The position numbers were made by a program, and so were the translations under genes. DNA of 64,000 nucleotides from Candidatus Methylacidiphilales bacterium (GTDB lineage: Bacteria; Verrucomicrobiota; Verrucomicrobiia; Methylacidiphilales; JAAUTS01): the NCBI GenBank assembly GCA_028713655.1, contig JAQTNW010000002.1:76627-140626 (forward strand), written 5' to 3'. The notes beneath the pieces were generated by a model. It was given only the letters and a program-made list of their open reading frames with translations. It was not told the DNA's origin and did not search any database. This document shows positions 24,083 to 25,903 of the stretch, piece by piece. Each line of letters opens with the position of its first letter. The stretch's first letter is position 1.

Positions 24083-24139
24083 CGCAAAGAGCATAAGACG
24101 CAAAGGCGCGGATCGTGCTCCGGAATTTAGCGGGAGCGC

Positions 24140-24234
24140 GGGCATCCTGCCCGCACCGCTGCGCATCCTGCCCGCACCGCTGCGCATCCTGCCCGCACCG
24201 CTGCGCATCCTGCCCGCACCGCTGCGCATCCTGC
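24140..24234. repeat. 21-bp tandem repeat (minisatellite)
   Basis: The unit gcgcatcctgcccgcaccgct occurs in four full copies (24140-24160, 24161-24181, 24182-24202, 24203-24223; the first begins ggg instead of gcgc-type) plus a partial fifth. At the first copy gcgggc-atcct-gcccgc forms a perfect six-pair hairpin. The unit length is a multiple of three and the array is open in several frames, but no gene spans it convincingly. The rest of the 24083-24392 gap shows a gcaaagagcataagacgcaa repeat piece and nothing else. Confidence 0.9.
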
Positions 24235-24392
24235 ACAGCGGATGCTTTTATCGCTCGTTTCGGTGTGTGTCCCCCCCCAATTTCGGCTTGTATTGATGAT
24301 GCGGGCGGACAAACTGCCTGGATGCAGCGCCAACGGCAGGTTGTTCACAATCGGGTTGCATTTGTAGGTAAAATGCCGCATGCGGCTGAACA

Positions 24393-24896
24393 ATGCTGTT
24401 TGATCATAACAAAATTATGTTTTTAGCCGATGTAATATTTCCAGCCTTTTCGGCACCATATTTTGCAGACTTCTTTTTCCCTATGGCCGCAGGGTTGGCT
24501 ATCGCCTCAGAAATATTGGTATTCAAATTCAGGTATAAATCATTACTTTCCTGGTTTCGCGCTTGCTGGTTCGCCATCCTCGCCAATATTGTTTCATGGA
24601 TTTTTGGGCTTATTCTTAGTCTTATTTTGCCAAGCGGGCTAGTTCCCAAAGTTGAGCGGGCAGGCGATCATCCGATTAGCATTATTACCCAAGGACCCAA
24701 TTTCACTATTTTGATGATATGCGGATTTATCCTGGCTTATTTATTGTCCATTTGCATTGAGTATGCCGTATGGCGACGTCTTCTTAAATCTTCCCCCTTA
24801 CCATCTCTTTTTACTACCTGCATTATCGCCAACACGGTGAGCTATTGCCTTCTCGTTAGTATTGCCTATGCTTATATTCACTTTAACTGGTGGTAA
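24393..24896 (+). CDS. Small multi-pass membrane protein, cassette-like unit 1
   Basis: A 167-residue protein of unknown function with about four transmembrane segments (FPMAAGLAIASEILVF, SWFRACWFAILANIVSWIFG, FTILMICGFILAYLLSICIE and CIIANTVSYCLLVSIAYAYI). The coding sequence is A/T-richer than its neighbours upstream, a sign of foreign origin. The start may instead be the ATG at 24417; neither has a clear ribosome site. The stop is followed within 10 bases by a ~105-bp attC-like element, as expected of an integron cassette. Confidence 0.6.
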   Translation: MLFDHNKIMFLADVIFPAFSAPYFADFFFPMAAGLAIASEILVFKFRYKSLLSWFRACWFAILANIVSWIFGLILSLILPSGLVPKVERAGDHPISIITQGPNFTILMICGFILAYLLSICIEYAVWRRLLKSSPLPSLFTTCIIANTVSYCLLVSIAYAYIHFNWW

Positions 24897-24905
24897 ATAG
24901 GAAAG

Positions 24906-25009
24906 GCCGAACAGGGTGACGGACCGCAACTGACCTAATCGCTGCGCGATTCCTTCTGCCATGCGCCGTGCGCAGCACGTCGCCCGCTGCAAGCAAGGGG
25001 CAGTTGGTC
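24906..25009 (+). repeat. attC-like element A
   Basis: A ~104-bp element begins GCCGAAC and ends near GTTGGTC. It has an internal AATCG-CTGCG-CGATT hairpin and outer segments gaccgcaactgacc and ggcagttggtc that pair imperfectly. A second element at 25430-25536 is clearly homologous (shared ctaatcg-tgcgcgattccttctg and gccgtgc blocks). Size, position just after a stop codon and imperfect dyad symmetry fit an integron attC recombination site, although the R' end departs from the consensus GTTRRRY. Confidence 0.5.
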
Positions 25010-25058
25010 ATCACGAACGGTCATTGAAATTATCCCGTGACCAGGCTAAGTTCGTGAT

Positions 25059-25250
25059 ATGAAGACCACGGGCTACACTTTCTGGCAGGACGGGGCACAC
25101 TGGCTTGGCTACCTCGACGAATATCCCGATTACTGGACGCAGGGCGAATCAGAAAAGGAATTAAGAGATAATTTAATTGATCTGTTCCAGGATCTTTCCA
25201 GTGGAGCGATACCAGCCGCCAGGCGACACGCCGAGTTGGAGGTTGCGTGA
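25059..25250 (+). CDS. hicB: HicB-family antitoxin
   Basis: A 63-residue protein with the short partial-RNase-H-like HicB fold: FWQDGAHWLGYLDEYPDYWT, QGESEKELRDNLIDLFQDL. It would neutralise the HicA toxin encoded immediately downstream with a four-base GTGA overlap. The antitoxin-first order is less usual than hicA-hicB but is known. It lacks a C-terminal DNA-binding domain, so autoregulation would need another protein or the complex. The pair lies between the two attC-like elements. Confidence 0.85.
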   Translation: MKTTGYTFWQDGAHWLGYLDEYPDYWTQGESEKELRDNLIDLFQDLSSGAIPAARRHAELEVA

Positions 25251-25426
25251 AGCAACGCGACCTGCTTAGGAAAATCGAAGATTTAGGCGCAGTATTAATC
25301 AGGCATGGAGGAAACCATGACTGGTATCAGCACCCGGAAACAAAAATTTGTCAACCGGTACCGCGCCATCGCGAGATCAATGAAAATCTTGCCCGCCACA
25401 TCATCAAAAAATTCACAAAGAAATAA
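25247..25426 (+). CDS. hicA: HicA-family mRNA interferase toxin
   Basis: A 59-residue protein starting with GTG that overlaps hicB by four bases. The sequence runs KQRDLLRKIEDLGAVLIRHG, then GNHDWYQHPET, then PVPRHREINENLARHIIKKF. That is the full HicA double-stranded-RNA-binding-like fold, with the catalytic histidine in GGNHDWY and the typical PVPRHREI segment. HicA cleaves mRNA when freed from HicB. It is short enough to escape a 60-residue length cut-off. Its stop is three bases before the second attC-like element. Confidence 0.88.
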   Translation: MKQRDLLRKIEDLGAVLIRHGGNHDWYQHPETKICQPVPRHREINENLARHIIKKFTKK

Positions 25427-25429
25427 AAG

Positions 25430-25536
25430 GCCGAACAAGGCAATGGATCGCGACTGCCCTAATCGTTGCGCGATTCCTTCTGTCATCCGCCGTGCAGGCA
25501 ACTTCGCGCGTCAGAAGCGAGGGGCGGCTGTTCAAC
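25430..25536 (+). repeat. attC-like element B
   Basis: A ~107-bp element starting GCCGAAC and ending GTTCAAC. CGAACA and TGTTC at the two ends are complementary, CTTCTG and CAGAAG pair inside, and AATCG-TTGCG-CGATT forms a small hairpin, so the whole can fold as one interrupted stem. It is roughly three-quarters identical by eye to element A. Together with A it delimits a ~525-bp unit containing only hicBA. Confidence 0.5.
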
Positions 25537-25549
25537 GTACGGGCGCAAT

Positions 25550-25903
25550 ATGAACAAGACCATCGATATCATATTTTATATGCTTCAGTTTGGGACGTTT
25601 GTCGCCGCACTCGGAGTTTCACTGTGGATATATTTCAGAACAAAATCGTACGTGCGCCTCATCCTAACTGCTTGGGGAGCAATGTTTATCTGGTCGCTTT
25701 TAAACTGCGTTTTCTTTCCACTCATTTTTCATTTAGCTGGCGTTAAAAAAGTCTTCAACTACGCACCGGAGATGACTGGAGTTGCGGCTTGTGGATTGGC
25801 GGGGTGGCTTTTTGGCATCGAACTCGCCATCATCATTTTTATCTGCCGCCTCTTATACGCAGGATTTAACCGGCTTTTCCGAAAGGCCAGACCGAAAGCC
25901 TAA
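25550..25903 (+). CDS. Small membrane protein, cassette-like unit 3
   Basis: A 117-residue protein of unknown function with three to four hydrophobic segments (IIFYMLQFGTFVAALGVSLW, LILTAWGAMFIWSLLNCVFF, ACGLAGWLFGIELAIIIFIC) and a basic tail. It starts 14 bases after attC-like element B. The stop codon lies within GCCTAAC, which matches the RYYYAAC end box of an attC site, but I cannot find a matching partner downstream. The gap to the GH16 gene (25904-26096) shows only short inverted repeats. Confidence 0.6.
   Translation: MNKTIDIIFYMLQFGTFVAALGVSLWIYFRTKSYVRLILTAWGAMFIWSLLNCVFFPLIFHLAGVKKVFNYAPEMTGVAACGLAGWLFGIELAIIIFICRLLYAGFNRLFRKARPKA

Follow-up and report, generated by a model that had tools for sequence, protein, structure and literature searches.

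Two similar elements, W1 and W2, alternate with small genes in the window, by which we mean the whole 64-kb stretch of contig C2 that was analysed, and the question they raise is whether they are attC sites of an integron and, if so, whether they still function. We consider the locus to be very probably a small decayed CALIN (a cluster of attC sites lacking an integron integrase, a type of locus that is already known) with the order membrane gene, W1, hicBA, W2, membrane gene. The original prediction of an attC or CALIN arrangement was right in kind, as judged by attC sites in the same genome, an intact IntI gene elsewhere in it and the recovery of W1 and W2 by a model from which both had been excluded. 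The definition of a CALIN, at least two attC sites with no integron integrase nearby, fits the locus only when decayed attC sites are counted.

Both elements lie on the plus strand. W1 (24906–25025) comprises an R'' box GCCGAAC (24906–24912), an L'' arm (24916–24924) with an extrahelical G at 24922, an L' arm (25007–25014) and a degenerate R' box GGTCATT (25019–25025). W2 (25430–25543), an attC decayed more strongly than W1, has the R'' box GCCGAAC (25430–25436), a shortened L' arm and a degenerate R' box GTACGGG (25537–25543). That each element begins with GCCGAAC (at 24906 and 25430) and lies 3–10 bases past a stop codon had been anticipated, and both points hold, with stops ending at 24896 and 25426 and gaps of 9 and 3 nt. 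The homology of W1 and W2 far exceeds chance: identity is 77% over 109 ungapped nucleotides at a spacing of 524 nt (78% over ~117 nt in a second alignment), with a local alignment score of 125 against a maximum of 43 among 1,000 shuffles.

We built a covariance model (R1) from an alignment (A1) of 13 attC sites on contigs C30, C44 and C63 of the same genome, with W1 and W2 left out. The A1 structure has seven R''/R' pairs, eight L''/L' pairs and one extrahelical column. Because it was chosen from the same sequences its paired percentage is favoured, with 91.8% of 183 cells paired and 38 cells changed on both sides, values that none of 500 shuffles reached; slid versions of the structure were only 18–38% paired. 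Eight pairs showed a double change, no excess over the shuffles, of which 297 of 500 had at least as many. Applied to the 64-kb window at E ≤ 1, R1 found W1 (45.2 bits, E 1.2e-9), W2 (a modest 30.4 bits, E 8.6e-6) and nothing else, although neither had gone into the model. Rfam at gathering thresholds gave no matches in the whole window.

Of 859 first-look candidates in the own genome 150 were scored, and R1 gave at least 45 matches at E ≤ 0.1, of which 13 are the training sites. Across 40 genomes including this one, matches at E ≤ 0.001 numbered at least 38 in the own genome, at least 51 in G001 and at least 14 in G010, and the other 37 genomes gave none with up to 90 candidates scored in each. 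An IntI gene was found at E ≤ 1e-60 in two of the 40, the own genome and G001, in both cases above the curated cut-off, and this coincidence of attC sites and IntI in the same genomes (G010 excepted) provides an independent check on R1. A search of the own genome with W1 returned copies on C30 (86% over 119 nt) and on C63 and C44 (77–78%), along with six further matches at E 0.1–4.5 and partial copies on C41 and C21 (88% over 73 nt). The partial copies lie at the end of C41 (L005) and the start of C21 (L006) and have altered outer ends with the middle kept; the two contig ends have 243 nt in common at 99.6%, which suggests one place split by assembly.

The model also moved the boundaries of the locus. 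The elements had been placed at 24906–25009 and 25430–25536; their homology stands, but R1 sets their ends at 25025 and 25543, which gives a cassette-like unit of about 25020–25537 in place of the segment 25004–25530. Similarly, the GTT triplets at 25003–25005 and 25530–25532, previously taken for the G/TT point, correspond in the intact copies to positions within the inner L' arm or immediately inside it and not to R'.

The genes at the locus are, as described earlier, small, unrelated and all on the plus strand. The first (24393–24896) encodes a small predicted membrane protein of 167 aa with four hydrophobic 19-aa windows, presumed to be the cargo of a first former cassette; its GC content is 0.411 and its only Pfam match is a sub-threshold one to DUF4396. 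Picked by eye, GTTTGAT at 24398–24404, ahead of an alternative ATG at 24417, is a speculative left boundary for its cassette. Between W1 and W2 lie a gene for a HicB-like (UPF0150-like) protein of 63 aa, a putative antitoxin (25059–25250), and one for a HicA toxin of 59 aa (25247–25426). The putative assignment of this pair as hicBA has a score above the cut-off for the toxin (Pfam HicA_toxin, 43.5 bits; cut-off, 27) and a weak one for its partner (UPF0150, 15.8 bits; under the cut-off of 27.3). Hits to cassettes on C44 were 38% over 55 aa for HicA and 41% over 49 aa for the HicB-like protein, and the hicBA-type cassettes there, which sit between attC sites, encode HicA proteins scoring 34.3 and 76.2 bits, a HicB-like antitoxin scoring 42.5 bits and one HicB-like partner below the cut-off. 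The last gene (25550–25903) starts 7 nt past W2 and encodes a small predicted membrane protein of 117 aa with three hydrophobic windows and no Pfam match, the presumed cargo of a further former cassette. It ends in GCCTAAC, which resembles an R'' box; with filters off, no third attC was found after it, the other 14 of 16 matches scoring at most 6.8 bits.

The block from 24393 to 25903 has a GC content of 0.472 versus 0.549 for the window, and just 0.16% of 1,511-nt windows are lower. When the four small genes were compared with 20 integron-related stretches, including 16 loci of the own genome and arrays of relatives, only HicA had matches (three). A tandem repeat with a unit of ~21 nt (GCATCCTGCCCGCACCGCTGC) occupies 24147–24235, between the first membrane gene and a 422-aa gene upstream of the locus.

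Exact gain or loss of the segment was sought in relatives, among which those returned for comparison included no second genome of the same genus. The 422-aa gene is present in 39 of the 40 genomes, and the order surA–pdxA–422-aa gene was found in seven of eight relative stretches, the eighth (G012) matching the 422-aa gene only. The side downstream of this gene never resembled the window in any of the eight, and the four small genes had no match there. Since the GH16 gene and the cassette genes were unmatched in all eight (0 of 8), there is no flank pair from which an exact empty site could be defined.

The locus had been described as having no integrase, which is true locally and not for the genome: no integron-integrase (TIGR02249) match occurs on C2, but one on C30 scores 424 bits and the closest copy of W1 and W2 (82–86% identical; C30:338–456, 86% to W1) lies in an array beside it. 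Of the 11 TIGR02249 matches in the genome, it is the one above the curated cut-off of 265 (C30:3215–4156, 424.3 bits), and it falls in an uninterrupted ORF of 457 aa (C30:2786–4159). Residues 144–456 align with residues 5–318 (of 320) of IntI4 (entry 2a3v), including the region between conserved motifs. With a score above the TIGR02249 cut-off, the IntI-specific region and the conserved recombinase motifs, this ORF qualifies as a complete integron integrase. The adjoining attC array (C30:1–2700) is on the opposite strand and reads away from intI. Within it, a 234-nt stretch holding a gene end and an attC occurs twice at 99.6% identity (L026 897–1130 and 2095–2328), which may be a recent duplication or an assembly effect.

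Recombination at attC sites has a single-stranded, bottom-strand geometry. By analogy with known integrons, each attC in the window would once have folded as a bottom-strand hairpin and been cut by IntI at G^TT of R', so that the hicBA unit (~25020–25537) would formerly have been a mobile cassette. The array may be what is left of an integron platform after loss of intI and attI, or its cassettes may have been inserted at a place other than attI. Mutations in the two R' boxes and in the L' arm of W2 would since have frozen it, with the genes persisting, hicBA perhaps through toxin–antitoxin addiction.

It is possible, if on the doubtful side, that the genome's own IntI, acting in trans, put the cassettes at a secondary, non-attI (attG) site and that the locus never had an attI or intI. 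In E. coli, insertion at attG sites has been reported (Loot 2024, as cited in PMC12444791). An attI was sought in the window, which shows no trace of one or of intI although IntI is present in the genome: alignment of 24091–24470 to the C30 attI scored 33, within the range of shuffles (maximum, 38), and the best nhmmer --max match (E 0.86) was located elsewhere in the window. The last attC of an inserted array would take the outer part of its R' from the target, which fits W2 but leaves the mutated R' of the internal W1 unexplained, and the orphan attI loci are evidence that this genome also has platforms that lose intI. Insertion at attG overlaps with the explanation of the locus as a decayed CALIN, however, and is not opposed to it.

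How far the CALIN has decayed is best judged from its boxes. The R'' consensus of attC sites is RYYYAAC; the R'' boxes of W1 and W2 are of this type, and GCCGAAC is identical to the box of intact sites in the same genome. A GTTRRRY box and extrahelical bases are likewise given as attC features in PMC12901181. The GTT cleavage triplet of R', invariant in the 13 A1 sites, is absent at the aligned positions of W1 (GGTCATT) and W2 (GTACGGG), and we therefore class both as decayed rather than working attC sites. In the R1 alignment, L''/L' pairing and the extrahelical base are largely kept in W1 and largely lost in W2. A lineage-specific variant had been suggested for the deviating end boxes, an idea that the intact sites of this genome contradict, as they carry ordinary RYYNAAC/GTTNRRY-type boxes, paired L''/L' arms and an extrahelical base; on sequence grounds, the R' boxes of W1 and W2 are decayed and not a lineage consensus. 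Intact sister copies of the W1 family on C30, C44 and C63 score 80.7–87.2 bits with R1, scores that are inflated because these copies are training members.

Nor did the interrupted stem expected of both elements emerge, their bottom strands folding as DNA no better than shuffled sequence (z = −1.26 for W1 and +1.72 for W2) in comparison with −5.94 for the intact C30 copy and −7.63 for the C44 copy. The C63 copy, which has good boxes, was also unremarkable (z = 0.15), so poor folding alone is no proof of decay, for which we give the boxes more weight. It is accordingly improbable that the two elements still work as attC sites and that hicBA is a mobile cassette: both elements retain a good R'' box, most L''/L' pairs and the extrahelical base survive in W1, and the genome has an apparently intact IntI gene, but R' is without GTT in both, the L' arm of W2 is short and there is no folding signal. 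We attach next to no likelihood to the idea that W1 and W2 have nothing to do with integrons and belong to a dispersed REP- or MITE-like intergenic repeat. The best-kept part is indeed the middle, around CTAATCGCTGCGCGATTCCTTCTG, and the copies at the C41 end and C21 start keep that middle with altered ends; but the complete copies on C30, C44 and C63 are preceded by small genes and show pairing of R'' with R' and of L'' with L', the one on C30 is part of an array beside intI, and 37 of the 40 genomes gave no R1 match at E ≤ 0.001 at the limit of 90 scored candidates.

Beyond the decayed CALIN in the window, the genome contains several attI-like sites. By its position and G^TT junction, the C30 sequence between intI and the first cassette is a putative attI, and four further putative copies were found (three other search matches are an inverted repeat inside copies): C18:15247–15363 (L187; 91% identity to the C30 attI), C6:36142–36267 (L186; 87%), C63:11760–11878 (L027; 83%) and C23:45396–45532 (L188; 77%). 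The alignment of these four (~120 nt) starts ~20 nt before CAAATT/TAAATT and stops at the G^TT junction; each copy is on a contig without an integrase above the cut-off and is followed by a small ORF. A putative partial sixth copy (C6:100505–100557, L011 1097–1149; 31.5 bits) is directly followed by TTCGAT and a small ORF. Sites resembling attC come after the copies on C63 (80.7 bits) and C6 (33 and 26 bits); an R'' box is visible after those on C18 and C23, where R1 finds no site. Upstream of the four orphan copies, the search for intI remnants gave no trustworthy protein match. BLASTN aligned C18 with C30 at 82% over 178 nt, reaching 50 nt into the 5' end of intI; when C18 was tested against intI by local alignment, the outcome was unconvincing, with 6 of 300 shuffles scoring equally high. 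An attC array on C26 borders on ATP synthase genes, and near its end 75 nt (C26:1526–1600, L191) are 88% identical to the 3' end of the C30 intI; judged by this match, the segment is another intI remnant.

Two related genomes have intI stubs next to attI-like sites. G010, in which no IntI scored above the cut-off, has an attI-like site (C13:3577–3649; 78% over 73 nt to the G001 attI) that heads an array of nine attC sites and adjoins an N-terminal intI stub (L199 3591–3851) that matches the IntI region of G001, taken together with its upstream part, at 45.5% over 101 aa (E 1.9e-25). A second attI-like site in G001 (C111:7942–8011, L210; 73% over 70 nt) also adjoins an N-terminal intI stub, 51.7% identical over 60 aa to that of G010 (E 1.8e-14); a small ORF and an attC (36 bits) come after this site. 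Retention of attI with loss of intI thus appears in three genomes, in any of which a fragmented assembly could hide an intI. The pattern suggests either that the integrase was lost repeatedly while attI platforms were retained, or that several platforms are served by one integrase. A more far-reaching reading, which we think unlikely, is a distributed integron in which the C30 IntI would serve in trans at least five putative attI platforms, spread over different contigs and each with a short cassette string, and would drop cassettes at sites like that in the window, while attI, presumably with its promoter, would be kept under selection where intI was deleted. The two related genomes with an intI stub alongside attI suggest such selection; the promoter, within attI or close to it, is a guess.

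Sedentary chromosomal integrons, such as that of Vibrio cholerae with its VCR repeats, have genome-specific attC repeats, arrays read away from intI and toxin–antitoxin cassettes. The present genome is like the V. cholerae integron in its many similar attC sites, arrays directed away from intI and toxin–antitoxin cassettes, and unlike it in that its own array is broken over contigs, there are several attC families and the window copies are isolated. About half of Xanthomonas genomes carry dispersed CALINs, at partly conserved places, according to PMC12444791; like the window locus, these lie apart from the main platform or intI-bearing locus, but they belong to another lineage, and the present genome has several orphan attI copies. 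The system in PMC9024848 also has two attC-type sites with small genes between them and no integrase nearby, although the attC sites of the window lack a good R' box. In the truncated-attI cassettes of class 1 and 2 mobile integrons, attC gives way to a fragment of attI, mostly a short one (PMC12901181). The attI copies described here share with them the presence of attI sequence away from its usual place beside intI, but are ~120 nt long, lie upstream of cassettes and occupy separate chromosomal loci.

Outside class 1 integrons, attI is poorly described and undetected by standard software, according to PMC9024848, so that loci with attI and cassettes but no intI would either escape notice or pass for plain CALINs. 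A weak literature search, covering few subscription journals, found no named example of multiple attI copies without an integrase. The window locus itself is one more decayed cassette cluster, in a host outside the best-studied integron hosts, and the part worth following is the surrounding genome with its several integrase-less attI loci. Five attI copies in one genome, together with intI stubs beside attI in two relatives, form a natural series on integrase loss, and the same series bears on whether one integrase can serve several platforms.
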